Positions 1,316 to 15,846 of a stretch of 64,000 nt of DNA are shown in pieces (the stretch's first letter is position 1; the number at the start of each line of letters is the position of its first letter). The DNA is taken from NCBI GenBank assembly GCA_027071355.1, contig JALSUJ010000337.1:1-64000 (forward strand), written 5' to 3'. The translations under genes and the position numbers were made by a program. The DNA comes from Gammaproteobacteria bacterium (GTDB lineage Bacteria; Pseudomonadota; Gammaproteobacteria; GRL18). Below the pieces are notes generated by a model. That model was given only the letters and a program-made list of their open reading frames with translations, made no database searches and was not told the DNA's origin.

Positions 1316-1380
1316 ATTGCATCTCCTTGATTGGGAGACACACTGACCCAACCGGGAAAGTGTATTTCCCAGTCTGGGTT
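1316..1380 (-). promoter_or_regulatory. start-site RNA switch of the helicase gene
   Basis: Read as RNA, a hairpin with arms ACCCAGACTGGGAAA and TTTCCCGGTTGGGT is followed by AGTGTGTCTCCC and then the Shine-Dalgarno AAGGAGATGC. TCTCC can pair with GGAGA and hide the Shine-Dalgarno. The same segment can instead pair with GGGAAATACACT in the upstream hairpin. This is one member of the repeated switch family. Confidence 0.7.
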
Positions 1381-1407
1381 TTAATTTCAGTTACCGTGGC
1401 AAAGTCC

Positions 1408-1608
1408 ATGCTTCATCACAATAACCACCTACGTTTAACACCAAAAGAACAAAAACAACTGACCGGTCTAACCGGGAGTGATCCCTCTTTTATCAAGAGT
1501 AAATCCCAGCTCAATCAGTTTGTTCAATCTCATTTAGTGAATTATCCCGGCAGAAGTGCCGAAGAAAAACTTCTCAGAAAACTACTTGAGTCATTTCTTA
1601 TTCATTGA
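1408..1608 (+). CDS. possible small protein on the opposite strand
   Basis: A 66-residue frame with protein-like, hydrophilic composition (LTPKEQKQL, PGRSAEEKLLRKLLE) fills the gap between two minus-strand genes, where the minus strand has no open frame. It overlaps the 3' end of the convergent gene by 18 bases. No clear ribosome binding site precedes ATG 1408 and I do not recognise the protein. It may be chance coding. Confidence 0.3.
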   Translation: MLHHNNHLRLTPKEQKQLTGLTGSDPSFIKSKSQLNQFVQSHLVNYPGRSAEEKLLRKLLESFLIH

Positions 1609-1776
1609 TTCGAGCGTGTTTAATGCCCGAACATAAATATAAGAAAGTTCATCACGAAGTTCTGTATTATCATCCAGATGCTGCTTGATAAATTCAGCAT
1701 AATCCGGATCATCGGCCAGTTCTTTAAGCTGTCTTTGACAGCGAACCAACCAGTTAAGGTCAATTAGATTAACCAT
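1591..1776 (-). CDS. small ICE accessory protein, paralogue of its neighbour
   Basis: A 61-residue acidic protein starting MVNLIDLNWLVRC. The next gene upstream starts MINLIELQWMSRC, so the two are paralogues. The start at ATG 1776 is chosen because AGGAG sits ten bases upstream and the open frame beyond it is only leader sequence. It is the second gene of the operon headed by the leader at 2.2 kb and has its own start-site hairpins. Function unknown. Confidence 0.65.
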   Translation of the reverse strand: MVNLIDLNWLVRCQRQLKELADDPDYAEFIKQHLDDNTELRDELSYIYVRALNTLESMNKK

Positions 1777-1845
1777 AAAGGATCTCCTGAGCAGGAGACA
1801 TACAGAACCCCAAAACAGGGAAGTGTATATCCCTGTTTTGGGGTT
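1777..1845 (-). promoter_or_regulatory. start-site RNA switch
   Basis: A perfect hairpin with arms AACCCCAAAACAGGGA and TCCCTGTTTTGGGGTT is followed by a second perfect hairpin, TCTCCTGCTCAGGAGA, whose 3' arm is the Shine-Dalgarno. The pre-Shine-Dalgarno segment TGTATGTCTCC is also largely complementary to GGGATATACA in the first hairpin, giving mutually exclusive folds. Confidence 0.75.
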
Positions 1846-1856
1846 AAAAGAACAAC

Positions 1857-2036
1857 TCAAAGAACGTGAGTCAGATGTTTTGTCGCCATCACATATAAAT
1901 AAGGATAACGACTGATTAAAGCCGGATAGTGGTTAAACATATCCTGGGCTTTCAATGCCATAATGCTGGCACCATTATTACGATCCGGATGAGTCAGACA
2001 TCGGCTCATCCACTGCAGCTCTATCAGGTTTATCAT
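1857..2036 (-). CDS. small ICE accessory protein, first gene of its operon
   Basis: A 59-residue protein starting MINLIELQWMSRC, paralogous to the 61-residue protein encoded just downstream. ATG 2036 is preferred over two upstream ATGs because GGAGATGCCA places the Shine-Dalgarno at normal distance and because of the alignment with the paralogue. It follows the pseudoknotted leader at 2.2 kb and heads the operon leading to the helicase. Function unknown. Confidence 0.65.
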   Translation of the reverse strand: MINLIELQWMSRCLTHPDRNNGASIMALKAQDMFNHYPALISRYPYLYVMATKHLTHVL

Positions 2037-2254
2037 TGGCATCTCCATTAAAAAAACAGGAAATACTCCCTGCCGGGAACATTCCCTGCAGGGTAAAACA
2101 AACCATTCGTAACTTACTCAATAGGTTCAATATCAAGCGTCTGTGATTTCAAGTTACACGCACAGACTGTTTAAAGGCGTTGCTAAAGAAGTAGCAACCA
2201 CTTTCAAATCAGCTTTCTGAATAATTCACTATTAAGGTAAATTATTTAGAAAGC
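2037..2254 (-). promoter_or_regulatory. operon leader RNA, copy A: pseudoknot plus start-site switch
   Basis: Hairpin I is GTTGCTA/TAGCAAC (2179-2198). Hairpin II is GTCTGTG/CACAGAC (2139-2167). The loop of II contains GTAACTT, which pairs perfectly with AAGTTAC at 2109-2115, forming a pseudoknot. A long hairpin (2211-2254, GCTTTCTAAATAATT with AATTATTCAGAAAGC) precedes hairpin I. The usual CCCTGC...GCAGGG-type hairpin (2067-2094) and a Shine-Dalgarno-pairing segment follow. Confidence 0.75.
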
Positions 2255-2257
2255 CTG

Positions 2258-2283
2258 CCCCACAAGAAGTGGGGTAGGGTATT
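2258..2283 (-). promoter_or_regulatory. GC hairpin with TACCCTACCC motif upstream of leader A
   Basis: CCCCACTTCTTGTGGGG forms a hairpin next to TACCCTACCCC. The motif CCCTACCC also lies upstream of two other leaders (near 5690 and 7005), so it may be part of the operon promoters; the hairpin may instead end transcription from the preceding operon. Confidence 0.4.
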
Positions 2284-2345
2284 CCATAGGTATTAAATCG
2301 CTTCCAGTTCAACCGGACTCCCATTGGGTGAATTTAATAATAGAT

Positions 2346-2771
2346 TTAGGCGATATTTACAGCATCAATCACCAGGCATAATGCATCATTTTCATTGTAT
2401 GTAAAATTCAGTTTAAACAAGGCCAGTTCAGGTTCTGCTATAGACTGAAATTTACGCACAATAATGCTGCTATTAAAATAAAGCTCTTTTTCAGGAAGCT
2501 CATTTTTATTGATTTCAATAAGATTCAGAGCATTCAATAAGATCTGATCCTCTCTCTCATGTTGTGATTGTTGAACATTAAAAAATTCATTTTCACCATC
2601 ATTCCATACGATATAGCGTTTCCAGACATAAATGGTAACATACACATTCAAATCACTGGCTAAACCCAGAAATTGAGCGGAATGAGTAACCTCTATAAAT
2701 TGTTTGCTTTGTATGACTTCCAGTTGCATTTTTTTTGGTTCACCATCACTTGTATTGTTAAAAAAGCTCAT
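2346..2771 (-). CDS. hypothetical ICE accessory protein
   Basis: A 141-residue soluble protein with no signal peptide or membrane segment and no motif I recognise. ATG 2771 is preferred over the ATG six bases upstream, because the latter overlaps the Shine-Dalgarno GGAGATG. It is the last gene of the operon beginning at 5.43 kb, after the methyltransferase, and has its own near-perfect start-site switch. Confidence 0.65.
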   Translation of the reverse strand: MSFFNNTSDGEPKKMQLEVIQSKQFIEVTHSAQFLGLASDLNVYVTIYVWKRYIVWNDGENEFFNVQQSQHEREDQILLNALNLIEINKNELPEKELYFNSSIIVRKFQSIAEPELALFKLNFTYNENDALCLVIDAVNIA

Positions 2772-2835
2772 TTGCATCTCCTTTTTTTAAAAAAAAGGGA
2801 TACACACCCTGTTGGGATGTGTATCCCAACAGGGT
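2772..2835 (-). promoter_or_regulatory. start-site RNA switch, clearest example
   Basis: The hairpin ACCCTGTTGGGAT/ATCCCAACAGGGT is perfect. GGGATACACA in its 5' arm and loop is exactly complementary over ten bases to TGTGTATCCC downstream. That downstream segment, with its T run, can alternatively pair with AAAAAAAGGAGATGC containing the Shine-Dalgarno. The folds exclude each other. Confidence 0.8.
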
Positions 2836-2896
2836 TAAAAAATACCTGCTCAATTTACTGAGTCTCTGACTTTCAAGGTATTAACAGAAATAATAA

Positions 2897-4300
2897 TCAG
2901 ACAACATCCATTAGTTTATTGCCACAATTAAATGTACTGGGATCAATACTGAGCAGGGATTTTCCAATCGCCTGACCCAATGTTTTAACCAGTTTATAAA
3001 TAACAGATTGTCCTAAAATCTCATGAGCCGTTCTTTGACTTAAATCCGACACCAGATATTCAGGTATAGTTTTAAGCCTGGCATGTTCATTAACTGTAAA
3101 CTGCCTGAGTAAATTAGGATCAGAAGGGTGTAGTAGTTTTGGTTCAGTGGATCGAACCTTACTGTAACCACGACCAATAACTGGAGTTGAAACAGAAGAT
3201 TTATCAACTATCTGCATTTTAAATGAGTGGCCTTTGGCTTTATCATTTATCTGCTTTTGTTTTAAACCTTTCATTTCTGACCACATTGGACTGTCACCAG
3301 GTATATCATCCAGGATTTCTGCTACACACGAAACACCCGTTACCGGCTTATCCATAAGATCCCAGTCAAACTCAAGACCTTGTGTGGGACAGATCATAAA
3401 CATGCGTTCCCTGTTCTCCAGTGCACCATAGTGGCGACCATTAAGAACACGAACCGCATTGTCTGTCTGATAACCCCAGCCCTGAAGTACATCCAGGATC
3501 ACATATAAAGACACCGTATTGGCATACTGCTTTACATTTTCCAGGATCACAATGGCTGGATTGATCCGCTGAATATGAGACAGAAAACTATAAAACAGAC
3601 GACCAGCAGATCCATGTTGCTCTGCGAAAGCCAGTTTGTTTTTAGCACGACCGGCAAGACTGGCACCAGTACAAGGCAAACCTGCCTCGTATAAAACCAC
3701 CGAACTTAATAAGGCCGTTTCTACCTCATCCATAGAACCTTCGATAGCCAGGCTTCCAGCTGACCAGATGGGACTGTTTCGCATGGAAGATTCCAGGTAT
3801 TTATGCTCTTTTTCAATGGCAAATAACAGATCACCTCTAAATCCAGCATCTGACAGGCCATCATGGATTGCAGTGGACATAATGCCACCACCATGAGCAT
3901 TACTGCCAATAGTTACAACACGCTGGGAAATCGCCTGTTTTATGGCTTGCAGCCGTTGTGCGATCAGCTTGTCTATTGGATGATAAGTGATCACAATTAG
4001 TCCGTTGATATAAAATGTAATTCTGGCACGTTCAAAATGACCAAAAAAATCAGTAATGGCCTGGTTGATAATATCAACTAAAGGCTGAACCACCATGGCA
4101 TTACGTTGTTTTTTTCTGGATACTTTAAATGTACCTGAATCATCCAATACCAATCTTATTTGATCAGTATCCACTTCCACTTTAAAAGCAGCACCGATAT
4201 TGAAACCGGCATCCTCTAAACTCTGTCCTTGTAACCAGAGTCGCTTTCTGGATTTATGCAAACCTATCTTACGATAGGCCACATACAATTGATTATTCAT
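2897..4300 (-). CDS. SymE-like domain fused to C5-cytosine DNA methyltransferase
   Basis: This 467-residue protein would transfer a methyl group from SAM to cytosine in DNA. Residues about 1-60 (SRKRLWLQGQSLEDAGF, then GAAFKVEV) resemble the SymE/AbrB-fold toxin-like domain. The rest has C5-methyltransferase motifs: GLPCTGAS with the catalytic Cys near residue 210, LENVKQY (ENV motif) near 255, and a C-terminal LRQFTVNEHARLKTIP block. Such fusions occur in ICEs; self-modification against host restriction or gene control are plausible roles, and the target is unknown. It lies between two unknown proteins in one operon and has its own start-site switch. No cognate endonuclease is nearby. Confidence 0.85.
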   Translation of the reverse strand: MNNQLYVAYRKIGLHKSRKRLWLQGQSLEDAGFNIGAAFKVEVDTDQIRLVLDDSGTFKVSRKKQRNAMVVQPLVDIINQAITDFFGHFERARITFYINGLIVITYHPIDKLIAQRLQAIKQAISQRVVTIGSNAHGGGIMSTAIHDGLSDAGFRGDLLFAIEKEHKYLESSMRNSPIWSAGSLAIEGSMDEVETALLSSVVLYEAGLPCTGASLAGRAKNKLAFAEQHGSAGRLFYSFLSHIQRINPAIVILENVKQYANTVSLYVILDVLQGWGYQTDNAVRVLNGRHYGALENRERMFMICPTQGLEFDWDLMDKPVTGVSCVAEILDDIPGDSPMWSEMKGLKQKQINDKAKGHSFKMQIVDKSSVSTPVIGRGYSKVRSTEPKLLHPSDPNLLRQFTVNEHARLKTIPEYLVSDLSQRTAHEILGQSVIYKLVKTLGQAIGKSLLSIDPSTFNCGNKLMDVV

Positions 4301-4374
4301 TTTTTATCTCCTGATAATACAAACCAGAAGATCAGCTTACCCATAACAGGAAAGCCGATCCCTGTTTGGGTAAG
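4301..4374 (-). promoter_or_regulatory. start-site RNA switch of the methyltransferase gene
   Basis: The hairpin CTTACCCAAACAGG/CCTGTTATGGGTAAG is followed by AAGCTGATCTTCT. That segment can pair with the Shine-Dalgarno AGGAGAT or with GGGATCGGCTT in the hairpin. The pairing partners differ from other copies but remain complementary. Confidence 0.7.
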
Positions 4375-4388: not shown

Positions 4389-5429
4389 CTATGCCACCTG
4401 GTTATTTTCCTCAAGCTGTTTTTTAAAAAAGCCTAAAGTATTTGGTTTAAAATGAAGATCCAGCTCCACATTATTTTCTATTAGCTCGGCAATAGAGATA
4501 TAGCCATACTCAGGAAAGCCCATATTGGCCACGCCATAAGCCTGGTTTTGTTCAGCCAGCATATCCTTTTCAGAAATATACCAGTCAAACCCACCGTAAA
4601 AATAATGCAGATAAGCGATTGCATCTTCACCCTTATCTTCCTGCCCACCTGTTTGAGGCATGGATTGGATAAGTTGCGTCGTTTCAACCAGCTGATCAAT
4701 AAAATATTGACCTTCTTCACCACAAGTAGCTTCCAGCATAAAATTAAGCTGCCTTTCACCCATAAACGCCTGTAAATATTTTGCTGCTTTACGGGCATCC
4801 TGTAATGAATTTGGCGATGGTTCCGCTACTTGTAGGATCTCAGGTTTACTCTCACCCTCTTTAAGGGTCAGAATACCGTCCTTAATGGCGCTTTCCATAA
4901 GATCCTCAACATCACTGCGGATTAGATCCAGCTTAATGGCATGAATGGCTTCACCAGTTAAATAACGCAACCAACCCTGTTCTTCAAAGGTTTTTAAAAC
5001 GTATTTTTTCCAGTGATCAAGCAAGGGTAAATGACAGGCTTCTTTGATGATTTCCCAGGTATCCGGCTGTTCTTCTTTATCACGATAAATTAACAGGGCC
5101 TTGTTGTTTAAACTGTCAGGCTTATCAGCTAATTTGTCGTAAATAAATACATGAGACAGGGAACCGAATATTTTGGACTGAGCACGACCATTAACTTTGG
5201 TCAGTTCCTCAATATCAGGAATATCAACATAAACCGTTTGATCAGTATCGAGGTTTTCAAGATGAATTTCTCGTAAACCTTGTTCTGATTTAGGCAGGGT
5301 CAATCGGGCAAAAAATTCCTGCAAGGCAGTATCTCTTCCCCAGACCGATAAAAAGATCAGTTTGGACTGATCCAGTAAAAACGCATCAACGTAGAGATCA
5401 GCGATCTCATCTATTTTATAAAGGTTCAT
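4389..5429 (-). CDS. hypothetical ICE protein with DUF2958-like C-terminus
   Basis: A 346-residue soluble protein, first gene of the operon led by leader B. The last 80 residues (AIAYLHYFYGGFDWYISEKD, then GYISIAELIENNVELDLHF) resemble DUF2958, a small domain common on mobile elements, but I call this only tentatively. The N-terminal 250 residues are unrecognised. The start at 5429 is set by AAGGAGATGCT just upstream. Confidence 0.7.
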   Translation of the reverse strand: MNLYKIDEIADLYVDAFLLDQSKLIFLSVWGRDTALQEFFARLTLPKSEQGLREIHLENLDTDQTVYVDIPDIEELTKVNGRAQSKIFGSLSHVFIYDKLADKPDSLNNKALLIYRDKEEQPDTWEIIKEACHLPLLDHWKKYVLKTFEEQGWLRYLTGEAIHAIKLDLIRSDVEDLMESAIKDGILTLKEGESKPEILQVAEPSPNSLQDARKAAKYLQAFMGERQLNFMLEATCGEEGQYFIDQLVETTQLIQSMPQTGGQEDKGEDAIAYLHYFYGGFDWYISEKDMLAEQNQAYGVANMGFPEYGYISIAELIENNVELDLHFKPNTLGFFKKQLEENNQVA

Positions 5430-5636
5430 AGCATCTCCTTAACATAATAAAAAAGGAATGCCTAAACCCATTTGTTGGGAATAAACATCCCAACTGGGTT
5501 AAAAAACAAGAAAAAACCAATGATGGCCAGACAGCATTTCATTTTCTCAAACTGTCTTTAAGGGCGCAGAATAACTCTGCAGTAAAAAAACGGGTTATGT
5601 AATAACCTTAAAATAATTAAGAATATTACATAACCA
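5430..5636 (-). promoter_or_regulatory. operon leader RNA, copy B
   Basis: Hairpin I is GCAGAGTTATTCTGC (5566-5580). Hairpin II is GACAG/CTGTC (5530-5556), whose loop AGAAAA can pair with TTTTCT at 5509-5514. A long hairpin precedes it (5591-5636, GGTTATGTAATA with TTATTACATAACC). The start-site hairpin AACCCAGTTGGGA/TCCCAACAAATGGGTT and a Shine-Dalgarno-pairing segment (GGCATTCCTT) follow. Confidence 0.7.
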
Positions 5637-5709: not shown

Positions 5710-5889
5710 TCAGGAGGCTGGAACCAGCTCCCAGTTGATTTCCAGAGTACAGATACGTTTTTCAATAAACTGTTTCAGTGTATCTTTATCGTTCTGCTCG
5801 GAAGAATGATTAAATAAAATAACCGCTTTATGCAGTTGCTGGCAGTTAGCGGAAATCTCTGTTTGAGTAAATGTTTGTAAAGTATTCAT
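5710..5889 (-). CDS. small ICE protein (QLHKAV motif)
   Basis: A 59-residue protein containing QLHKAVILFN. The first gene of the same operon (46 residues, at 6.7 kb) has QLHEAVKLFN, so they are probable paralogues flanking another paralogous pair. The Shine-Dalgarno is weak (AGAGGA). Last gene of the operon headed by leader C. Function unknown. Confidence 0.6.
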   Translation of the reverse strand: MNTLQTFTQTEISANCQQLHKAVILFNHSSEQNDKDTLKQFIEKRICTLEINWELVPAS

Positions 5890-6007: not shown

Positions 6008-6199
6008 TTAAGTTTTAATATAAACCAGGGCAATTTGAGCAGCCACTCCAAGAATAACGGTTCCGATCCAGAACCATTTTTGCCATTGCCAATGGTTTTC
6101 CTGCTCAACCCGATGTTTAATTTGTGAATAGAGATCCACTTTATTTAACTCCTCAATTTTTAAATCAGTAATATCATCAATATTTACAGATTTTGACAT
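6008..6199 (-). CDS. small membrane protein, tandem paralogue 2
   Basis: A 63-residue protein: a conserved soluble N-terminus (MSKSVNIDDITDLKIEEL) and one C-terminal membrane helix (about residues 43-62). It is nearly identical over the first 35 residues to the 69-residue protein encoded upstream, and the DNA is also close, so the duplication looks fairly recent. Function unknown. Confidence 0.65.
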   Translation of the reverse strand: MSKSVNIDDITDLKIEELNKVDLYSQIKHRVEQENHWQWQKWFWIGTVILGVAAQIALVYIKT

Positions 6200-6282
6200 C
6201 TTGTTACATATCCTCCATTTTGATAATTAAAAGGGGATATGCAAATATCCATCAGGGATTTGTATATCCCCGTCGGGTTTCG
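6200..6282 (-). promoter_or_regulatory. start-site RNA switch with altered Shine-Dalgarno partner
   Basis: GGGGATATACAAAT in the first hairpin is complementary, apart from one base, to ATTTGCATATCCCC downstream. That segment also pairs with GGATATG of the Shine-Dalgarno region. Here the common GGAGATG is GGAGGATATG and the partner has changed with it. Confidence 0.75.
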
Positions 6283-6309: not shown

Positions 6310-6519
6310 TTACTTAAAATAGAGAGCAGCAACGCCCAGTATGGCAGTTATGACTATAGTTCCCAGCCAGTACCATTTCTGGTTTTCCATTGATCGCCGT
6401 TGAGCTTCCCAATGGTTTTCCTGCTCAACCCGATGTCTTATTTGTGAATAGAGATCCACTTTATTAAGCTCCTCGATTTTTAAATCAGTAATATCATCAA
6501 TATTTACAGATTTTGACAT
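6310..6519 (-). CDS. small membrane protein, tandem paralogue 1
   Basis: A 69-residue protein with a soluble N-terminus (MSKSVNIDDITDLKIEEL) and one C-terminal membrane helix (about 49-68). ATG 6519 is chosen because the homologous neighbour starts at the same residue; the longer frame is leader sequence. It differs from the neighbour by a short insert before the helix. Confidence 0.65.
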   Translation of the reverse strand: MSKSVNIDDITDLKIEELNKVDLYSQIRHRVEQENHWEAQRRSMENQKWYWLGTIVITAILGVAALYFK

Positions 6520-6598
6520 TTTATTGCATACTCCCAATTTTAGAATTAAAAAAGGAATGCAATCAACCGCCGGGATGATAAAACATCCCAGCGGATTC
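6520..6598 (-). promoter_or_regulatory. start-site RNA switch
   Basis: The hairpin CCGCTGGGATG/CATCCCGGCGG is followed by TTGCATTCC, which can pair with the Shine-Dalgarno region GGAGTATGCAA, or with GGGATG of the hairpin. TTGCAT/ATGCAA is a pair not seen in other copies. Confidence 0.7.
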
Positions 6599-6604
6599 AG
6601 GGTA

Positions 6605-6745
6605 TTACACAACTTTCAGTGCAATTTCCCCCAGTTTTTTCTTAATGGCCACCTCAATATCAATGGCAAGTTTCTCTTTTTCCGGATTACCTGCAGGCAA
6701 ACGGTTAAAAAGTTTTACAGCTTCGTGTAATTGTGAATTACTCAT
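6605..6745 (-). CDS. small ICE protein, first gene of its operon
   Basis: A 46-residue protein (MSNSQLHEAVKLFNRL at the start, lysine-rich C-terminus) preceded by GGAGATGCAATT. It resembles the 59-residue protein at the far end of the same operon. No function can be assigned. Confidence 0.6.
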   Translation of the reverse strand: MSNSQLHEAVKLFNRLPAGNPEKEKLAIDIEVAIKKKLGEIALKVV

Positions 6746-6970
6746 AATTGCATCTCCAAAAAAAGGGATGCATTCAATAACCCATTGGGATCATTAAAAG
6801 CATCCCAATGGGTAAATTCATCCAAACGAATGGACGAACAGTTAATTGATCAGAAATAAACTGATCGCACAAGAGAAATAAGCCGATATGACTTGCTGTT
6901 TGAGTTTTCTAATTAAAGAAAACTTTCTCTCACAACAGCTAAAAGGCGCAACTAAACTGAAGTTGCCACA
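6746..6970 (-). promoter_or_regulatory. operon leader RNA, copy C
   Basis: Hairpin I is GCAACT/AGTTGC (6948-6966). Hairpin II is GCTGTT/AACAGC (6895-6939), whose large loop contains AGAGAAA, an exact partner of TTTCTCT at 6872-6878. A GATCAG/CTGATC hairpin lies between. The start-site hairpin ACCCATTGGGAT/ATCCCAATGGGT is perfect, and GCATCCC can pair with GGAGATGC or with GGGATGC in that hairpin. Confidence 0.78.
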
Positions 6971-7285: not shown

Positions 7286-7756
7286 TTAAGAACCTGCGGA
7301 CAGTGCTTTACGATGCCGTTTAAAACGACAATGAGCAGTCAGAGCCATAGACTCTCTGTATTTGACTCTCAAATCAAAAAAAGCATCTGGATCATCATTT
7401 AAAACACCATCTTCCAGAGACTGCCACAGATGTGCATAATTATCATGCAACTGTTCAACAATCAGTGCATCAGGTGATTTACTACCAATACAATCCAACA
7501 TATAAACATTTATCGTATGATCATGTAGTTCCCAATGATTCATGATCACATTAAAATTGGCTTCTTTTAATTCCTGATAGGACCATGAAAAACAAATTTC
7601 ATGGCCATCATCATCCAACACTGTATTATCAAAGACCGTGTTCTCAGCATCTTCAAAATGTTTTTCCAGGTTAAAGTGACGTACAAACTGGCCATCAATC
7701 TCAAGACAATCAGCAAGAGCTAATGCCTCATATAAATCACAACATTTTTCATTCAT
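7286..7756 (-). CDS. hypothetical ICE accessory protein
   Basis: A 156-residue acidic soluble protein with a basic C-terminus (CRFKRHRKALSAGS). No recognised domain. It is the last gene of the operon that starts with DUF3275, behind two methyltransferase-like genes, and has its own start-site switch. Confidence 0.65.
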   Translation of the reverse strand: MNEKCCDLYEALALADCLEIDGQFVRHFNLEKHFEDAENTVFDNTVLDDDGHEICFSWSYQELKEANFNVIMNHWELHDHTINVYMLDCIGSKSPDALIVEQLHDNYAHLWQSLEDGVLNDDPDAFFDLRVKYRESMALTAHCRFKRHRKALSAGS

Positions 7757-7827
7757 ATTAATATCTCTCTTATAAATTTAAGAAAGACGATCAAACCCAT
7801 CAGGGTTAAGATCGCCCAATGGGTTAA
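7757..7827 (-). promoter_or_regulatory. start-site RNA switch
   Basis: AACCCAT/ATGGGTT encloses a loop carrying CGATC, complementary to GATCG in the segment GATCGTCTTTCTT. That segment pairs fully, with wobbles, to AAGAGAGAT containing the ribosome binding site. Confidence 0.65.
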
Positions 7828-7909: not shown

Positions 7910-8569
7910 TCAGTGTGAACACATCACAATTTCAAAACCAGATGGTGTTTTCAGCGATAAAACTGTGCTGAAAAAAGGAGCAACCTCCTCATTTAATTCC
8001 TCCGCTGTAAACCCTCTTTGAAAGGTACCGGATTTTGTCCGGATACCATCATCATAAGGTTCAGCTGTCTGATAAAGCTGTTTCATAGCGGATTCACGTT
8101 TAGAGCGTACTGAGATAAAGGCTGTTCCGGTGATTTTCACCAGTTCAGCTATCATCTGCAGAGTCATTAAACGCTGGGTTTTAGGTAAAACATTCAGCAC
8201 ATAAGTGCAAAATACAAAGTCATAAGTGCTTTTTTGCAATACCTGGGGGTAATTGGCGTGAACAAAATCAAATTCACTACAAGGTTGGCCTGTCACCTCT
8301 GAAATTGTTTTTGAGTCCAGATCAGCTTTTCCTTTGCCTAAATGAAGAGCAAGCCCCTGAAATAACAGGTTATGCTTGATCACAAACTTCAGTGGTGCTG
8401 ATGCCGACCGTCTATAAATAGCCGTCTTACCAGCAATACGAAAAGGTTCATTCAGCGTTGTCTGAGCACCTGACTTGAGATCACGACTGATTTGTTTAAT
8501 ATCAGTGAAATTACTCAAAGCCTGGGGATCAATACTTTCCAATAATGGCCTTTCAAATAAATAATTCAT
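7910..8569 (-). CDS. methyltransferase-like protein
   Basis: A 219-residue protein resembling the methyltransferase family first noted next to DNA phosphorothioation genes: an N-terminal TAIYRRSASAPLKFVI block, a degenerate SAM-binding loop (LHLGKGKADLDSKTI) near residue 80, and a conserved central FVFCTYVLNVLPKTQR. A class I SAM-dependent enzyme is likely; the substrate is unknown and no dnd genes are present. It sits two genes after the DUF6094 methyltransferase in the same operon. Confidence 0.65.
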   Translation of the reverse strand: MNYLFERPLLESIDPQALSNFTDIKQISRDLKSGAQTTLNEPFRIAGKTAIYRRSASAPLKFVIKHNLLFQGLALHLGKGKADLDSKTISEVTGQPCSEFDFVHANYPQVLQKSTYDFVFCTYVLNVLPKTQRLMTLQMIAELVKITGTAFISVRSKRESAMKQLYQTAEPYDDGIRTKSGTFQRGFTAEELNEEVAPFFSTVLSLKTPSGFEIVMCSH

Positions 8570-8636
8570 AAAAACTCCAAATTTAAAATAATTAAAAGGA
8601 GCCTACCCTGATAGGAGTAAGCTCCCAACAGGGTTG
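8570..8636 (-). promoter_or_regulatory. start-site RNA switch
   Basis: The hairpin ACCCTGTTGGGAG/CTCCTATCAGGGT is followed by GGCTCCTTTT, which can pair with AAATTTGGAG (Shine-Dalgarno) or with GGGAGCTT in the hairpin. Confidence 0.6.
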
Positions 8637-8912: not shown

Positions 8913-10037
8913 TTATTGAATGGTCACAATCGAGCCATAATTTTCCCCTGGGGTAAAATCAAAGGCCCGGATCACTGGTACAAACTTATCGGTGGCCGTT
9001 CGGATCTCAGATACTACAGAGCCATCATCATTTTTATTATAGGTTGTTTTAACGTCCTTCTTTTTATGGGTATCTCCTTTGATCACAAAGGTTTTAGATC
9101 CATCATCAGAAGTTACTATGCCATTGATATAACCGGCTGCGAGCATTAATGCCACATGCCAGTCGGTCAATTTGCGTAGAGGTTGACGCTTTTTCACCAT
9201 AATATTCTGAAATAAGGTATCAAAACGCTCCCATAATACTCCTTGCTCTGCAATTTCATCCTGCAGTTGCTTTGGATCCAACTTAACGTATTCAAATGTC
9301 AGTTTTTGATCATGAACAACCGGGATCATATACTTTTGTGTATCTTGCAGATCACTGTCTGGTAAAACCAGAGGAACCCTATCTCCCTGTCCTATAGACA
9401 GGAGATATTGCTTCATCTTTTTTATACCATCGTCTGAATTATGAGCACTCTGACAACGAACACCCATGATCACGATTTGTTTAAAATCATCCACAGCCGC
9501 TTTAAATACACGAATATGCATGTAATGTCGGGCAAGCCAGGACGATAACTGCTTATCCAGAATATAGAACGGGATAATAGTGATCCCAATTCCTCCAAAT
9601 TGTAATAACTGGATGGTTTTCTGATAAAACAGCTTTTCCAATCGGGCACGACCCTGTTTTTGATCGCTGTAGTTGACCTGATCGGAAACCAGATCGCCAT
9701 ACGGTGGATTAAAAAACATCAGTGAATACTGCCGACGACCCAACAGGCAGTCGTTAATATCACCATGGATCACTTGTCCCAACAGGTTTTTTGAATGCCA
9801 GGCACGTTCCTCATCAATTTCCACACCATAGGTCTGACACTGTAAAGTATCAGAGTCCAGGTAATGAGCCACTTCCGCCAGAGCCGTACCTTCGCCACAA
9901 CAAGGATCTAACAATCGAATAGTTCCCTGCCTGGGGGCTTTTAATTGACGCAAGATACCGGCAATGGTCCCCTCATCAGTAGGAAAATACCCTTTTTTAA
10001 TAAAATTTCTGGCCAGTCGTTGAAACATTAACGCCAT
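8913..10037 (-). CDS. DUF6094-type class I DNA methyltransferase
   Basis: A 374-residue protein with the SAM-binding motif LLDPCCGEGTAL near residue 45, an acidic motif II (YGVEIDEERA) and the catalytic NPPY motif near residue 110 (MFFNPPYGDL). The order is that of amino-methyltransferases acting on adenine or cytosine N4 in DNA. This family (DUF6094) is regular cargo of PFGI-1-type ICEs. The C-terminal half carries a charged stretch (KKKDVKTTYNKN) that may bind nucleic acid. It follows DUF3275 in the operon of leader D. Confidence 0.85.
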   Translation of the reverse strand: MALMFQRLARNFIKKGYFPTDEGTIAGILRQLKAPRQGTIRLLDPCCGEGTALAEVAHYLDSDTLQCQTYGVEIDEERAWHSKNLLGQVIHGDINDCLLGRRQYSLMFFNPPYGDLVSDQVNYSDQKQGRARLEKLFYQKTIQLLQFGGIGITIIPFYILDKQLSSWLARHYMHIRVFKAAVDDFKQIVIMGVRCQSAHNSDDGIKKMKQYLLSIGQGDRVPLVLPDSDLQDTQKYMIPVVHDQKLTFEYVKLDPKQLQDEIAEQGVLWERFDTLFQNIMVKKRQPLRKLTDWHVALMLAAGYINGIVTSDDGSKTFVIKGDTHKKKDVKTTYNKNDDGSVVSEIRTATDKFVPVIRAFDFTPGENYGSIVTIQ

Positions 10038-10092
10038 AATTTATCTCCTTAAAATACAAAACAGGGATCACTTAAAAAGAAATCCCCAGATT
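10038..10092 (-). promoter_or_regulatory. degenerate start-site switch
   Basis: GGGGATTTCTTTTTAAGTGATCCC forms a shorter hairpin than in other copies. GATCCCT can pair with AAGGAGAT of the Shine-Dalgarno. The alternative pairing is weak. Confidence 0.45.
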
Positions 10093-10101: not shown

Positions 10102-10659
10102 TTACTTAATCCAGAGCTGACGCTTAACATCAAACGTATAACCCAATTTACGCAGTTCATCCCTTTGTTGACGAAACAACTGACGATCCACAAGGGGATC
10201 CAGTTTTACTTCATCACCTGATTGGTTAGTCACCTGAATGTCACCAAAAACGCCTTGATTAACCGTGCTGTCAGTCAAAGGTTTGGTTTTTTCCGGTTTA
10301 CCCTGATCAAGTTTTGGCTGTTCAGTCTGAACGGATACTGGATTTTTTTGAGAGGCTTGCGCTTCATCAATAGGATCCGGTTCCAGTACTGAGGGCATTG
10401 TTTTTTCCTGAGACTCAACAATACTGACTGAATCCAGGACAGCCCGGATCTCAACCCGAACAGCACCCCCCCAGGTATAAGAACTGGGGAAGATTTTTGA
10501 GACAATAAATTCACCGCTGTATTCCCCTTCTGAATATTGTTCCAGCATGGGATCTTTAACGCTAAATTCACCGATATGGGTTAGCAAAGTGCCTACCGTA
10601 AAATCACCATTTCGACCATGAATAACCTTGGTCTTTAAGGTGCCTTCTAATTTAATCAT
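10102..10659 (-). CDS. DUF3275 family ICE protein
   Basis: A 185-residue protein whose first 110 residues match DUF3275: LEGTLKTKVIHGRNGDFTVG, then GEFSVKD, then SSYTWGGAVRVEIRA. A low-complexity linker rich in Pro, Gln and Lys follows. The C-terminus (LRKLGYTFDVKRQLWIK) resembles that of the DUF3577 protein at 14.2 kb. DUF3275 is an ICE family of unknown function. ATG 10659 is chosen over the ATG six bases upstream, which overlaps GGAGATG. First gene of the operon of leader D. Confidence 0.85.
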   Translation of the reverse strand: MIKLEGTLKTKVIHGRNGDFTVGTLLTHIGEFSVKDPMLEQYSEGEYSGEFIVSKIFPSSYTWGGAVRVEIRAVLDSVSIVESQEKTMPSVLEPDPIDEAQASQKNPVSVQTEQPKLDQGKPEKTKPLTDSTVNQGVFGDIQVTNQSGDEVKLDPLVDRQLFRQQRDELRKLGYTFDVKRQLWIK

Positions 10660-10914
10660 TTTCATCTCCTTATTGATTTATAAATCAGGAGACATTGACC
10701 CAATGGGATCATTGTCTCCCATTGGGAAACCGCCTTATAAAGCGGTTAAAAACATAACTCACCTGATATAAATATCAGGCGTCTGTGATTTCAAGTTACA
10801 GGCACAGACTTAAAGGGCGTTACTAAGGCAGTAGTAACCACTGTTAAAATCATTGACACCACTGGTACGAGTTTTTTTACCGCTTTGTTTTGTTTCAAAA
10901 CGGTAAAAAAACTC
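10660..10914 (-). promoter_or_regulatory. operon leader RNA, copy D
   Basis: Hairpin I is GTTACTA/TAGTAAC (10819-10838); compared with copy A both arms have changed together. Hairpin II is GTCTGTG/CACAGAC (10781-10809), and its loop TAACT can pair with AGTTA encoded at 10755-10759. A CCTGATA/TATCAGG-type hairpin lies between. A very strong hairpin precedes it (10869-10914, GAGTTTTTTTACCG with CGGTAAAAAAACTC). The start-site hairpin ACCCAATGGGA/TCCCATTGGG follows; TCAATGTCTCC pairs with GGGAGACAATGA or with the Shine-Dalgarno. Confidence 0.78.
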
Positions 10915-11096: not shown

Positions 11097-12119
11097 TCAG
11101 GTTGGTCCGACAGATTCGCCATATGCGCCTGCAGGTAAAACCCAATTATTTTGAAAAACAGGTTCATTAAATTCAGTGGACAGTGCAATCTGGATCCACC
11201 TGTGATCGCAATCATACGCCACACCTTTTTGAGCCTGTTGTCGAACAGACAGTTTCCGGTGAATGGTAACACCGAACTGCTCTTCATAATCAGCAATGCG
11301 ATTAAAGTGTTCCGGAGCGTATTTTTGTATGGTGGCCCATTGATTGGGACTCCCAAAAATACACGACAGACAACTGCATCGACCAAAGCCGCAATAATAG
11401 GCCGGATGAGCGGTGATTTTCCACCGCTCTAAAATGGCCCAGACTTCTGATTCTGACCACTGGTGAACAGGCCTCCAGTGATCAATATAACGACGAACCC
11501 GTTTACCACAACGGTTATCAGTACGATGAGGTTCAAACACCTCATATTTAGCACGAGCGGCACTTTCCTGTGCCCGTTCACCTGTAACTACCAGATAACG
11601 CCCCGTAGTAAAACGTGCCTGAGAAGTGATCAGACGAGCACCAACATCCACTTTCAGATAACCGCTGCACCACCGAGTCCGTAGATCCGCTGACACTTGT
11701 GGAAATTTCAGACGGGTCCCTAATGTCCCCCGAACTCCACCAGTTTTATGGAACTGAAAATGCTCATCCTGATGCCAAATCGCACCGGTACGCTGCTCAT
11801 CCCTTAACATTTCACGCTCGAACCCACCAGAGCGATAGCTCCAGTAAAGTTTCAAACCTAATGCCTGGCTGAGTTTTTCGGTATAGGCTTCTGTTACAGG
11901 CCAGTCCATCAAAGATGAACCTTCCATACCGTCCACACAGTGATGATGCAGTTCTATACGTTCCGGATTGACACCCTGTTCCAGTAAATGCAAGACACAG
12001 GCTGTTGAATCTTTTCCGGAAGAAAAAAATACAATAAAACCGTCATAACTGGCCAGTTCAATTTCTGGTTCTGGTTTATTATTGCTTTCAAACTCATACG
12101 CTAAATTACTGTTGTGCAT
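11097..12119 (-). CDS. phosphoadenosine phosphosulfate reductase-like ATP pyrophosphatase
   Basis: A 340-residue protein with the PP-loop motif (VFFSSGKDSTACV) near residue 31 of the adenine-nucleotide alpha hydrolase/PAPS reductase superfamily. A Cys cluster (CGFGRCSCLSC) lies near residue 260 and could bind a metal or Fe-S cluster. Family members on mobile elements, such as DndC-like proteins, often modify nucleic acids rather than reduce sulfate; which applies here cannot be seen. It follows radC in the operon of leader E. Confidence 0.8.
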   Translation of the reverse strand: MHNSNLAYEFESNNKPEPEIELASYDGFIVFFSSGKDSTACVLHLLEQGVNPERIELHHHCVDGMEGSSLMDWPVTEAYTEKLSQALGLKLYWSYRSGGFEREMLRDEQRTGAIWHQDEHFQFHKTGGVRGTLGTRLKFPQVSADLRTRWCSGYLKVDVGARLITSQARFTTGRYLVVTGERAQESAARAKYEVFEPHRTDNRCGKRVRRYIDHWRPVHQWSESEVWAILERWKITAHPAYYCGFGRCSCLSCIFGSPNQWATIQKYAPEHFNRIADYEEQFGVTIHRKLSVRQQAQKGVAYDCDHRWIQIALSTEFNEPVFQNNWVLPAGAYGESVGPT

Positions 12120-12178
12120 AAGAACACCCTCAAAAAAAAGGGTGTTCTCCCCCTATTGAGGTGAAAACACCCCAATGG
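12120..12178 (-). promoter_or_regulatory. start-site RNA switch with fully changed arms
   Basis: The ribosome-binding segment here is AGGGTGTTC, not GGAGATG. It pairs perfectly over nine bases with GAACACCCT just upstream, and GAGAACACCC also pairs over ten bases (one G-U) with GGGTGTTTTC in the first hairpin. All three strands have changed together, which is strong evidence for both folds. Confidence 0.8.
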
Positions 12179-12249
12179 GAACAAAACAATTTTAATCAAT
12201 TCTCAAAACCTAAAAGAGATTGATTAAACCGATAAGATACCTGTATTAC

Positions 12250-12747
12250 CTAGACACATCCTCGCTCCGCTAAGGAAACAACTTCATCACAACCGATGAT
12301 TAAATGATCCAGCAGGCGAATACCAACAAAGCCCAGAGCTTCTTTAAGTCGAGAGGTAATATGCTCATCAGCATGGCTGGACTCAGCGACACCTGACGGA
12401 TGATTATGTGCCACAATCATTGCAGCGGCATTATAGGCCAGAGCTTCTTTTACTACTTCACGTGGATAGACACTGGCACCATCAATCGTGCCTCGAAAAA
12501 GCACCTTATAAAGGATCAGCCGATTACGGTTATCCAGAAACAGGGCAACAAACACCTCATGTTCCAGGGCAGAGATTTTATATTTCAAAAATTCTCTTAC
12601 TTTATCCGGTTCGGTAAATACATCCTTATTTTTCACCTGTTCAAGCACTATTTCTGTGGCTTTACTCAGAATATCCTCATTGGTTACAGGCTCATTAACC
12701 AGGTAAAAACCGGGATTATCCATCAACTGAAAAGGACTCATACTCAT
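12250..12747 (-). CDS. radC: RadC-like JAB-domain protein
   Basis: A 165-residue protein with the RadC JAMM metal-binding signature (IVAHNHPSGVAESSHAD) near residue 115 and the typical start of the domain (EVFVALFLDNRNRLI). The N-terminal helix-hairpin-helix of chromosomal RadC is absent, as is usual for ICE and phage copies. The family was once linked to DNA repair; its role on mobile elements is unsettled. AGGAG lies nine bases before ATG 12747. Confidence 0.9.
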   Translation of the reverse strand: MSMSPFQLMDNPGFYLVNEPVTNEDILSKATEIVLEQVKNKDVFTEPDKVREFLKYKISALEHEVFVALFLDNRNRLILYKVLFRGTIDGASVYPREVVKEALAYNAAAMIVAHNHPSGVAESSHADEHITSRLKEALGFVGIRLLDHLIIGCDEVVSLAERGCV

Positions 12748-12818
12748 AGTGATACTCCTGTAAAATAATAACAGGCAGCATACGTCCCGACCGGAGCATC
12801 ATGCCCCTGTCGGGTTAA
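12748..12818 (-). promoter_or_regulatory. start-site hairpins of radC
   Basis: CCCGACAGGGGC and GCTCCGGTCGGG form the first hairpin. CCTGT and ACAGG, the latter part of the Shine-Dalgarno ACAGGAG, form the second. The alternative pairing is weaker than in other copies. Confidence 0.6.
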
Positions 12819-12852
12819 TAATAAAATAATAAAATAAATATCAAGAACTAAT

Positions 12853-13086: not shown

Positions 13087-13138
13087 TTTTCCTAAAATTA
13101 CATTTTGTTAAGTTATATCGATCAGTAACTAAAAATAA

Positions 13139-13163: not shown

Positions 13164-13173
13164 TCAAACTCAG

Positions 13174-13500
13174 TTATTGGATAATATGGTTCTGCACCAG
13201 ATAACGAGCGGTATAACGGCTTAATTCCACCATATCGTCCTCATTACCTTCTAATAGCGCAGCACAGTCCTTATTATCAAAACAAGCTGGAACCAGCTCT
13301 TTTTTTAGTACACGGCAATACTGAACCGTTTCTAAAGTAGTCGATGTCATTTTAATTTTGAGATCACACCACTCATTCACCGCATTTATAATTGCTAATT
13401 GAATAACACTATCTTGCTCACTGGCATGAGCCGGAGCAATAGAGTGAAATGTAGTCACAAATATTAATGCTAATACCATAAAAAGTTTAATTGAAGTCAT
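13174..13500 (-). CDS. exported hypothetical protein
   Basis: A 108-residue protein with a clear signal peptide (hydrophobic residues 5-22, cleavage expected after HSIAPAHA) and four Cys in the mature part that could form disulfides. Probably periplasmic. First gene of the operon of leader E, with AAGGAG upstream. Not recognised. Confidence 0.65.
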   Translation of the reverse strand: MTSIKLFMVLALIFVTTFHSIAPAHASEQDSVIQLAIINAVNEWCDLKIKMTSTTLETVQYCRVLKKELVPACFDNKDCAALLEGNEDDMVELSRYTARYLVQNHIIQ

Positions 13501-13762
13501 AAGTATCTCCTTAAATTATAAAAAAGGGGATGCACATACAATTATCCACGGGGATAAAAAATGTCATCCCCGATGGGTTAAGTCATCCAAGTTAATGGAC
13601 AGTTAAAATAGGCCGAAAATCAGCCACACAAGAGAAAAAGCCGGTTAAGGCTTGCGGTTTGGGTTTATAAAAAACCTTCTCTCACAACCGCTAAAGGCGC
13701 AACTAAACTGAAGTTGCTACAGTAAAAATACTCAGGTTTAAAATATTTAAACCAAAATACTC
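13501..13762 (-). promoter_or_regulatory. operon leader RNA, copy E
   Basis: Hairpin I is GCAACT/AGTTGC (13699-13717). Hairpin II is GCGGTT/AACCGC (13654-13691), a changed but complementary version of the GCTGTT/AACAGC of copy C. Its loop AGAGAA pairs with TTCTCT at 13631-13636. A hairpin precedes it (13727-13762, GGTTTAAA/TTTAAACC core). A start-site hairpin (GGGGAT/ATCCCC core, 13543-13580) and the TGCATCCCCTT/AAGGAGAT segment follow. Confidence 0.75.
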
Positions 13763-14165
13763 TTACTCCTACTACTTATTGTTGATTAAAAAATAAGGTA
13801 AGCAGCCTGTTTGTTAAAATCAGCCAAACAGGCCGAGGTTAAATAAAAATTATAAATAAAAAACACCAGTACAGATAAAATTTGAATCAATACCTGGCTG
13901 TTAAATAAACCACTCTCTACGACAAAAGAATTCTGTCACCTCATAACAGTTCATCCTCTGCTTGCGGATTGAATTAATTAATAGAGCTTCCGCAACTATA
14001 ACCGGGCGTGGATTTACACATGACCACACAAAAGGATCTCAATAGGTCTGATTGAGCACAGTGGGAGTTATATAGGACATTTAAGGCAAGTGTCCTGACG
14101 AAATAAACTGTCTGAAAATCCGACAATTCATTCGGGCAGGTACACCTGATGCGATCATTGACAAT
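13763..14165. other. structured intergenic region without a clear gene
   Basis: Several hairpins are visible: GCCTGTTTG/CAAACAGGC (about 13803-13832), TTGCGGA/TCCGCAA (about 13962-13991), TCAAT/ATTGA (about 14039) and GGACA/TGTCC (about 14075). A 93-codon frame covers part of it but has Cys-rich, non-protein-like composition. The promoter of the operon of leader E should be here. A structured RNA cannot be excluded. Confidence 0.4.
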
Positions 14166-14196
14166 AATATTTCGGCACCATGGGTACCGAAATATT
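14166..14196 (-). terminator. stem-loop after the DUF3577 gene
   Basis: AATATTTCGG and CCGAAATATT pair perfectly around GTACCCATGGTG-like loop sequence, 22 bases after the stop at 14218. Only a short T-rich tail follows, so termination is likely but not certain. Confidence 0.5.
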
Positions 14197-14217
14197 AAAG
14201 TATTAAGATGAGACCGA

Positions 14218-14853
14218 TTAAGCTGCCACTGATTTCTGCCAGCTTTTTCGTTCATTGTTCCAGCGGTAACCCTGCTGTTTCAATGTCCCTTTTTTTGCCA
14301 GGAAATCCGGATCTTCTTTGGAAAGAAAAACCTCTGAAAATTTATCCTGATCCTGAACCATAACCGACGAATTATCCATAACAGGGGGGACAGACTGATC
14401 AACAGATTGATTATTCTGAATGTCACTCTGTTGTTCCTGTTTCTGTTCAACAGCGGATAAATGTTGTGGCTTGTAAACCAGTTCATTGTTGATTTTAAGC
14501 CAGTTCAGCTTGATCAGACGACCTTTAAGCATCACGCCGGTCTGACCCTGTTTATTACCTGATTGATAGGTAAAAGTTTCGGGGTAAATATCCCCAATCT
14601 TGAACCCGACCAATACTTTGGTATCTTTATCCGTTTCATCCATACAATTTAGCAACACATTGAGTGCCTCTTCATTAACAATACGCACATCAAAATAAGT
14701 GTATAAAGTATTGTCAGTATTACCTCTTAGTGCTGCAATAGTGCAAGAATAAAATGATTGCCCCTGGTTTGGCTTAACCTGACGAAAACGATTCAGGTAT
14801 CCAATACCAGAAGTATGCAGATCAAAGTATTTGGTTTCAGTTTGAGTAGTCAT
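14218..14853 (-). CDS. DUF3577 (STY4534 family) ICE replication-associated protein
   Basis: A 211-residue protein. Residues 8-110 match DUF3577: KYFDLHTSGIGYLNRFRQVK, then SFYSCTIAALRG, then YFDVRIV. A Gln/Ser-rich linker follows, and the C-terminal LKQQGYRWNNERKSWQKS resembles the end of the DUF3275 protein at 10.1 kb. The family is named after STY4534 of Salmonella SPI-7 and annotated as ICE replication-linked without direct proof. ATG 14853 follows AGGAGAT by five bases. Confidence 0.88.
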   Translation of the reverse strand: MTTQTETKYFDLHTSGIGYLNRFRQVKPNQGQSFYSCTIAALRGNTDNTLYTYFDVRIVNEEALNVLLNCMDETDKDTKVLVGFKIGDIYPETFTYQSGNKQGQTGVMLKGRLIKLNWLKINNELVYKPQHLSAVEQKQEQQSDIQNNQSVDQSVPPVMDNSSVMVQDQDKFSEVFLSKEDPDFLAKKGTLKQQGYRWNNERKSWQKSVAA

Positions 14854-14939
14854 GGTACATCTCCTAAAGTAGTCATAAAAAAAAGGGATGCACACACAAT
14901 TATCCACTGGGATAAAAGATGTTCATCCCAGGTGGGTTA
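14854..14939 (-). promoter_or_regulatory. start-site RNA switch of the DUF3577 gene
   Basis: CCCACCTGGGAT and ATCCCAGTGG form the first hairpin. GTGTGCATCCCT follows and can pair with AGGAGATGT (Shine-Dalgarno) or with GGGATG in the hairpin. Confidence 0.6.
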
Positions 14940-14957
14940 AAAATAAATAGAGTTTAG

Positions 14958-15047
14958 TTAGTCAGAATGTTTATCAACATACCAGCCAACTAAAGCAATC
15001 ACTATTCCAATAGATAAGATAATTAAAGTTTGAGTGACTTCATTCAT
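14958..15047 (-). CDS. 29-residue single-span membrane peptide
   Basis: MNEVTQTLIILSIGIVIALV then GWYVDKHSD: one membrane helix with charged ends. The start codon overlaps the stop of the upstream gene (TAATG) and AGGAGG lies eleven bases upstream, so it is probably translationally coupled. The pair resembles the pair at 15.33-15.66 kb. Function unknown. Confidence 0.6.
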   Translation of the reverse strand: MNEVTQTLIILSIGIVIALVGWYVDKHSD

Positions 15048-15235
15048 TATCTTTTCCTCCTTAATAATAACGCAATTCCGATAGCTAAACTGCCTGTAAC
15101 AGATAAAGCAATGGCCGGGAAAAGGGTTATTTTTGAATCAATAAAGGTACCAATAATTAAACCAATTATTACTGCGGTACCAATATTATCGAAAACAGTC
15201 GCCAGACCGTTTCTTTGAGCTTTATTAAATTTCAT
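15047..15235 (-). CDS. small two-helix membrane protein (copy 2)
   Basis: A 62-residue protein with two membrane helices (about 17-33 and 40-58) and a basic C-terminus (LLLRRKR). It is similar to the 71-residue protein two genes upstream in the motif LA.xF..IG..xIIGL. ATG 15235 follows AGGAGG by eleven bases. Function unknown. Confidence 0.65.
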   Translation of the reverse strand: MKFNKAQRNGLATVFDNIGTAVIIGLIIGTFIDSKITLFPAIALSVTGSLAIGIALLLRRKR

Positions 15236-15310
15236 CCGTAGCACACCTCCTTTCAAAAGATTAAAAGAGATGCATGCGACCTCACTGGAGATGCATAGAT
15301 CTCCAGTGAG
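15236..15310 (-). promoter_or_regulatory. start-site RNA switch without CCC/GGG arms
   Basis: CTCACTGGAGA and TCTCCAGTGAG form a perfect hairpin. GCATGCATCTC follows, complementary in part to GAGATCTATGC of the hairpin and to the Shine-Dalgarno AAAGGAGGTGTGC. The arms differ from the usual CCC/GGG type but the layout is the same. Confidence 0.65.
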
Positions 15311-15329
15311 AAAAAAATTTAGTTAAACA

Positions 15330-15443
15330 TTACTTAGAATGTTTGTGTTTTTGCTCCTCATCACCATTTTTAACAGCCCAGGCAAACAGGATGATTAAAA
15401 ACGTGATTGAGAACATACTTATTGAAAACCAGTCCCATTCCAT
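15330..15443 (-). CDS. 37-residue single-span membrane peptide
   Basis: MEWDWFSISMFSITFLIILF followed by AWAVKNGDEEQKHKHSK: one membrane helix and a charged tail. It starts directly after the stop of the upstream gene (TAGATG), with AAGGAG upstream, so coupling is likely. Function unknown. Confidence 0.6.
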   Translation of the reverse strand: MEWDWFSISMFSITFLIILFAWAVKNGDEEQKHKHSK

Positions 15444-15659
15444 CTAGTTTTCTCCTTCAAAATACATTCCCAATAGAAAAAATTCAATGCCACTGATACC
15501 TGCACTAAGAGCCTGTAACATGGACATATCCTTTAATTCTAAAAGAATGTTTACCAACAACCCAATAATAAGGGTTTTACCAATATCCTTAAACAAATTA
15601 GCCAATGAGGCTTTGTGTTTTTTGTTCAAAGATATTTTAACGAACTTTTTAATGTTCAT
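15444..15659 (-). CDS. small two-helix membrane protein (copy 1)
   Basis: A 71-residue protein with a basic N-terminus (NIKKFVKISLNKKHK) and two membrane helices (about 28-41 and 48-65). It is a paralogue of the protein at 15.05-15.24 kb (LANLFKDIGKTLIIGL here, LATVFDNIGTAVIIGL there). First gene of the operon of leader F. Its role is unknown. Confidence 0.65.
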   Translation of the reverse strand: MNIKKFVKISLNKKHKASLANLFKDIGKTLIIGLLVNILLELKDMSMLQALSAGISGIEFFLLGMYFEGEN

Positions 15660-15846
15660 GTTATCTCCTTACAGTATAGCATTTGAACACGCTGATAAAG
15701 GAGATCACTACCCTGATGGGATGAACTCCCATCAGGGTAAAAGCATTAAGCCAAAACTTAACAAAATGACAAAACGGATCAAACGGACTGATGTCCGGTG
15801 TCTGAAACTGATCCACAAGACACATTTGCAACTACACTGAAGTTGC
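15660..15846 (-). promoter_or_regulatory. operon leader RNA, copy F
   Basis: Hairpin I is GCAACT/AGTTGC (15828-15846). Hairpin II is GTGTCT/AGACAC (15798-15823). Its loop GGATCA is an exact partner of TGATCC at 15776-15781, giving a pseudoknot with different bases from other copies. The start-site hairpin ACCCTGATGGGA/TCCCATCAGGGT is perfect. AGTGATCTCCTT can pair with AAGGAGAT of the Shine-Dalgarno. Confidence 0.78.

Follow-up and report, generated by a model that had tools for sequence, protein, structure and literature searches.

A replicated family of three-strand RNA leaders with competing pairings at start codons of a proteobacterial integrative and conjugative element

Translational riboswitches and attenuators use anti-Shine-Dalgarno and anti-anti-Shine-Dalgarno strands, and preQ1-I and SAM-II are small H-type pseudoknot riboswitches. 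Here we describe RNA leaders from an integrative and conjugative element (ICE) of the pKLC102/ICEhin1056/ICEclc type, where they lie in a block of accessory DNA-processing genes. The element is found in a stretch of 64,000 nucleotides (the window), contig C337 of a draft genome of 4.17 Mb that its relatives place in Pseudomonadota. As in translational riboswitches and attenuators, the Shine-Dalgarno (SD) segment of these leaders pairs with a strand (B) that can pair instead with an upstream strand (A); unlike in those systems, a ligand pocket is not conserved among the leaders, no leader peptide was seen, and there is one putative switch per gene. The alternative fold could be an H-type pseudoknot near the SD, similar in size to preQ1-I and SAM-II, but this pseudoknot would free the SD, it is without invariant loop residues, and the extension sequences of A, B and SD vary from leader to leader. 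Leaders regulated by CsrA/Rsm proteins are also small and hairpin-bearing with GGA at the SD, and the ICE in the window carries a csrA gene; the leaders described here, however, are also present in complete elements that lack a csrA of their own, and GGA in strand A is not conserved. The radC RNA (RF01754; Weinberg et al. 2010, PMC2864571) is likewise cis-regulatory, precedes genes of the same ICE family and occurs in several copies per element. Among the records examined here, however, radC RNA is a sequence-conserved fold of ~150 nt at operon heads, whereas the leaders conserve pairing, not sequence, and also precede internal genes.

Architecture and covariation of the leaders

Each leader begins with a pyrimidine-rich flank, ACCC, a variable stem, GGG(A) and a short loop, continues with CCC, the variable stem repeated and GGG(T), followed by strand B ending in CTCC or TCCC, and closes with a G-poor, T-rich spacer, the GGAG of the SD and the start codon. 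Two partners are available to strand B, the SD and strand A. The latter consists of the 5' arm (pairing with A') and loop of the first hairpin (hairpin 1), and minimum-energy folding gives two hairpins, hairpin 1 and B:SD, in most leaders of the window. The A:B helix has a median length of 8 bp and shares a median of 4 nt of B with the B:SD helix, so that the two cannot both form fully at the same time. Only ACCC, GG, CC, GGG, the CC of B and the SD are near-invariant among 50 diverse leaders.

In the window, a three-helix grammar reaches a score of at least 55 in 14 of 19 leaders, as against 0.26% of dinucleotide shuffles. Cognate strands pair better than permuted ones for A:B (z=-7.5), B:SD (z=-5.7) and A:A' (z=-9.1), and for each pairing none of 20000 permutations reaches the observed value. 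When only loop bases are tested against B, the window by itself gives a weak result (z=1.6), and the signal becomes strong only when relatives are added. For this wider comparison, leaders were selected in related ICE and plasmid loci and in the window's own genome by hairpin 1 and a start codon with an SD, B and its pairing not being used, which yielded 524 leaders in sense orientation and 22 in antisense. This bias bears on the proposal that the repeated unit acts at the level of DNA, for instance as a structure in transferred single-stranded DNA, and not as RNA. The elements are conjugative and the carriers include anti-restriction genes, as such a proposal would have it, but the fixed position at start codons, an orientation that follows the gene and a pairing centred on the SD make it highly improbable in our judgment.

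Removal of similar leaders left 196 non-redundant ones, in which the energy of cognate duplexes was compared with that of non-cognate duplexes. Cognate pairing is strongly preferred for A:B (z=-21.9), B:SD (z=-20.5) and loop:B (z=-10.3), whereas the negative control, A:SD, gives z=-1.3. Moreover, cognate strands outperform those of other leaders in the same element at 83 of 83 loci for both A:B and B:SD, and at 79 of 83 for loop:B, a comparison that controls for the shared ancestry and base composition of each element; the 83 loci include many near-identical elements and are not independent, the non-redundant set being that of the 196 leaders.

A second line of evidence comes from an alignment of 150 matches (123 non-redundant) to a covariance model, R1, that was built from 50 leaders and contains hairpin 1 and a 4-bp B:SD helix, with A:B left out. 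The middle-stem pairs of hairpin 1 show covariation scores of 102, 64 and 47, compared to a maximum of 27 in the shuffle null. Extensions lying outside the invariant GGG/CCC/GGAG blocks also covary, both between A and B (z=11.9) and between SD and B (z=8.7). In addition, the A extension resembles the SD extension (z=5.4), as is expected if both have to pair with B, and antiparallel pairing between these two extensions shows no enrichment in the same alignment. RNAalifold returned no useful structure from the alignment of mixed paralogues because stem lengths vary; the covariance model and permutation tests, which take the structure as given, were used instead.

By covariation, then, B has two mutually exclusive partners, the SD and the upstream strand A, and this competition for the same B bases strongly supports two mutually exclusive folds under selection. 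The sequence-only reading of this DNA had argued that A, B and SD vary together and that both folds seem selected, and it had proposed a covariance model and covariation tests of A:A', A:B and B:SD; these have now been run, and the pairings covary as it anticipated.

Leaders in the window and in related elements

R1 detects 16 minus-strand leaders at E<1e-4 between positions 1313 and 15738 (28-51 bits), together with two weak matches in the block, at 6517-6603 (E=0.02) and 10035-10083 (E=0.04). Most window leaders were in the training set of R1, and its matches in other loci lie mostly outside it. In total, 18-19 of about 25 cistrons in the block bear a leader, in agreement with the earlier estimate of repeated leaders at about 18 starts, and all four examples that had been quoted (before starts 2771, 12119, 6199 and 10659) are found in the sequence. 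The starts at 5889, 8897, 11039, 13086, 15047 and 15443 are without a leader. The leaders of the window are as follows (CM, covariance-model score; ORF, open reading frame):

1313..1379, minus: leader of the SNF2/ResIII-type helicase gene, start 1315 (CM 35.6 bits, E=1.5e-6; Pfam SNF2-rel_dom)
1774..1844, minus: leader of a small ORF, start 1776 (CM 28.4 bits)
2034..2094, minus: leader of a small ORF, start 2036 (CM 45.6 bits)
2769..2835, minus: leader of the ORF with start 2771; A 2818-2827, B 2797-2806, SD 2778-2781 (CM 51.5 bits, E=2.8e-10)
4298..4371, minus: leader of the C5 DNA methylase gene, start 4300 (CM 31.1 bits; PF00145)
5427..5499, minus: leader of the ORF with start 5429 (CM 40.1 bits)
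6207..6278, minus: leader of the ORF with start 6199; SD segment GGAGGATATG; the CM match stops 8 nt before the start codon (CM 29.3 bits; fold)
6517..6603, minus: weak leader of the ORF with start 6519 (CM 17.8 bits, E=0.021; fold)
6743..6813, minus: leader of a short ORF, start 6745 (CM 32.6 bits)
7754..7824, minus: leader of the ORF with start 7756 (CM 28.4 bits)
8567..8634, minus: leader of the ORF with start 8569 (CM 37.9 bits)
10035..10083, minus: degenerate leader, without the outer stem, of the DUF6094 methyltransferase gene, start 10037 (CM 16.7 bits, E=0.038)
10657..10727, minus: leader of the DUF3275 gene, start 10659 (CM 35.0 bits; PF11679)
12117..12180, minus: leader of the PAPS-reductase-like gene, start 12119; A 12163-12173, B 12140-12149, SD segment 12122-12131 (CM 31.1 bits; PF01507)
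12745..12815, minus: leader of the radC gene, start 12747 (CM 37.4 bits; PF04002)
13498..13578, minus: leader of the ORF with start 13500 (CM 41.0 bits)
14851..14937, minus: leader of the DUF3577 (STY4534-type) gene, start 14853 (CM 35.8 bits; PF12101)
15233..15316, minus: variant leader of the ORF with start 15235 (CTCACTGG variant, CTCACTGGAG arm), identified by eye from its fold and A/B/SD complementarity, with no CM match
15657..15738, minus: leader of the ORF with start 15659 (CM 38.0 bits)
30908..30980, plus: leader before the coiled-coil ORF 30978-31472, beyond the range originally noted (CM 28.1 bits, E=8e-5)

The block genes, all on the minus strand, encode an SNF2-type helicase, a C5 DNA methylase, a DUF6094 methyltransferase, DUF3275, a PAPS-reductase-like protein, RadC and DUF3577, and anti-restriction genes are among those carrying leaders. 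As had been proposed, the leaders are replicated and gene-specific, those of internal genes included. Two of the small ORFs, 6008-6199 and 6310-6519 (both minus), are adjacent close paralogues with separate and diverged leaders. The coiled-coil ORF 30978-31472 (plus), which has internal repeats of the form TELKRDI...HVKIEA, adjoins a tyrosine-recombinase-like ORF.

The observation is larger than first noted, extending as it does to related elements. The same plan, written in different letters, is found in two congeneric genomes (L007 and L008), in a GC-rich element of another family (L009), in a second element of the window's genome (L011), and in ICE or plasmid records from Paraburkholderia, Pseudomonas (pKLC102), Comamonas, Shewanella, Haemophilus (ICEhin1056), Enterobacter and Stutzerimonas. 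Elements carry roughly 5-17 copies, one leader per gene. A scan for DUF3275 relatives, built on a set of closer sequences given that the wide DUF3275 alignment is without conserved stretches, returned 80 loci from alpha-, beta- and gammaproteobacteria. In a congener (L003, G001:C395) two TAG codons interrupt the DUF3275 orthologue. Most ICEclc-type loci lack a leader on DUF3275 itself, and a first impression that the family is absent from them was overturned by the leaders that other genes there carry.

In the whole genome (G000), all 36 R1 matches at E<=0.5 fall on three contigs, C337, C461 and C241; C461, belonging to the second element, and C241 carry leader arrays of their own (L011, L125 and L126), and C241 is apparently a third element of the same genome. 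In a sample of the phylum, 19 of 399 genomes, the window's genome included, have matches at E<=0.001, several of them in clusters. The leaders of the complete elements pKLC102 and ICEhin1056 sit in the block from DUF3577 to the helicase or RadC, and a further set in ICEhin1056 (L131, 24.7-26.0 kb) precedes small ORFs as well as the gene of a zincin-like metallopeptidase, which we take to be ArdC-like. In the conjugation, partition and replication modules of these two elements the only match is a weak antisense one in pKLC102. The leader type is thus widespread, occurring in dozens of related elements across Proteobacteria.

A candidate translational switch

We consider it probable, from these sequence comparisons, that each leader is a cis-acting RNA switch governing translation of the single gene downstream, in which the SD would be hidden by default and freed when B moves to A. 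In the default fold (fold 1), hairpin 1 (A:A') would stand beside a second hairpin, B:SD, that hides the SD, and translation would be off or low. In fold 2, B would pair with A and leave the SD free; if a ~4-bp ACCC:GGG stem were retained about 5 nt before B, an H-type pseudoknot would result. Strand A would then be an anti-anti-SD, a mimic of the SD segment. A leader of this kind may have been copied to the front of many accessory genes of the ICE for DNA processing and anti-restriction, the paired strands drifting while selection kept all three pairings, and a common trans-acting factor or event would open hairpin 1. That B:SD is the off state, and that the leaders toggle in vivo, we infer. 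Under nested folding, the median pairing probability of the SD core is 0.87, compared to 0.74 at other starts of the same loci (P=7e-15).

Several observations weigh against such a switch. By crude energies, fold 1 is favored over fold 2 by a median of ~10 kcal/mol, and fold 2 is the better one in only 2.5% of leaders, so that the prediction of a thermodynamically favored fold 2 fails; hairpin 1 alone equals the pseudoknot in median energy, again crudely, when a penalty of 7 kcal/mol is charged for the pseudoknot. No conserved ligand-binding sequence is present among the 50 diverse leaders, no universal ICE-encoded regulator was found, and a G-U versus A-C wobble test was uninformative on RNA as the active form.

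The energies fit a static arrangement, in which hairpin 1 is an mRNA stabilizer or spacer, B:SD is a fixed damper of translation and A:B never forms in the cell, as does the pairing of the SD in most leaders by nested folding. This explanation, however, gives no reason for the loop bases, which are unpaired in fold 1, to be cognate to B (z=-10.3), or for the covariation of the A and B extensions (z=11.9), and we regard it as unlikely. For the switch, the far greater stability of the off fold implies that switching depends on a factor able either to open hairpin 1 or to bind fold 2, the candidates being a shape-recognizing protein, a helicase or RNA chaperone, or a radC-type RNA. Sensing of a small molecule by the leaders, as in metabolite riboswitches with their conserved ligand-binding cores, is unlikely given that the 50 diverse leaders have no conserved sequence core.

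The T-rich spacers raise the possibility of transcription attenuation, with A:B and the spacer forming an intrinsic terminator and A:A' the antiterminator; at operon heads, the radC-type RNA would signal antitermination. B often precedes 6-8 T in the window (2771, 12119 and 14853), spacers are 43% T and 7% G, and radC RNA lies directly 5' of the leader at operon heads. The GC-rich hairpin with a U-tract after B is a feature of AT-rich elements, however, at least 5 T in the 8 nt after B being present in only 37% of non-redundant leaders, and a terminator would need neither complementarity of B to the SD nor a fixed spacing to the start codon. We therefore give attenuation a low probability, slightly below that of static occlusion.

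As to the regulator, no ProQ/FinO protein is present in the genome, and the ICE of the window does encode a homologue of CsrA:

22501..22686, minus: ICE-borne CsrA homologue (62 aa), a candidate regulator, not universal (PF02599, 74 bits; tblastn)

CsrA-type regulation supposes that CsrA, from the ICE or from the host, binds at GGA of the SD (and of A), sites that the pairings expose or hide. It would be in keeping with this gene, which adjoins ssb and has a related copy in L007, and with a CsrA-like sequence on C241, the third of the contigs that bear leaders. Mobile-element homologues such as RsmQ bind GGA/AnGGA at the tops of hairpins (PMC9928087). The complete, leader-carrying elements pKLC102 and ICEhin1056, however, gave no csrA-like hit, where a CsrA regulon would call for a regulator gene in every leader-bearing element, and GGA is missing from many A strands. 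An ICE-borne CsrA as universal regulator is accordingly unsupported, and CsrA-type regulation as a whole seems very unlikely, with host CsrA a possible form of it.

Translational coupling was also considered. Stop codons of upstream genes end at least 9 nt before the leaders of internal genes, clustering at 14-18 nt, so that upstream ribosomes stop short of the leader; this is not decisive, and the gap would keep the leaders outside the terminating ribosome. That one common signal serves all leaders of an element is our conjecture. We suggest tentatively, and with some doubt, that elements like pKLC102, ICEhin1056 and ICEclc hold many of their establishment and DNA-processing genes under switches that are private in sequence and public in shape, silent while the element is resident and opened together by one shape-recognizing factor, perhaps with radC RNA, at excision or on entering a new cell.

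Relation to radC RNA and significance

The suggestion that the published radC RNA motif may be part of these leaders did not survive comparison with Rfam: RF01754 has no match in the window, either at gathering score or at E<10, and none in the genome. Taking membership as at least 40 bits to the covariance model, radC RNA is present in the relatives L013-L016, L018, L019, L024 and L033, where it is a separate neighboring element; its end lies 8-33 nt upstream of a three-strand leader in 10 of 11 copies, and the remaining copy overlaps the leader by about 30 nt. We therefore reject identity of the leaders with radC RNA. In L018, L019, L024 and L033 radC RNA stands directly 5' of the leader. 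This proximity suggests that radC RNA and leader form a composite operon-head leader, of which the available text of PMC2864571 gives no such account for radC RNA. A second repeated structured element (TTTTTACTGTnGCAACTTCAGTTTAGTTGCGCC..., with more hairpins) is seen at operon heads of the window on the minus strand, ~100-230 nt upstream of the leaders with 5' ends at 2094, 6813, 10727, 13578 and 15738. Rfam does not recognize it, and it occupies the place held by radC RNA in relatives; it is possibly a divergent radC RNA.

No family of Rfam 15 matches the leaders, at gathering score or in relaxed scans, and none matches the leaders of DUF3577 genes in any locus scanned. Two published accounts of ICEclc expression do not use the terms hairpin, stem-loop, untranslated or leader. 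Apparently, the leaders are an unreported and uncatalogued RNA family, although they could still equal the RNA motif named for DUF3577.

Mobile elements that are well studied, and that carry genes for resistance and catabolism, thus gain an apparently uncatalogued RNA family. The leaders delimit a putative regulon straight from DNA, comprising DUF3577, DUF3275, RadC, anti-restriction proteins, methyltransferases and the helicase. Because the copies share an architecture but not the sequences of their paired strands, the leaders also provide a natural mutational series for a candidate bistable RNA. What opens the leaders, and any tie of this opening to transfer, matters for explaining the quiet state of resident ICE genes and the way in which anti-defence genes come on after transfer.

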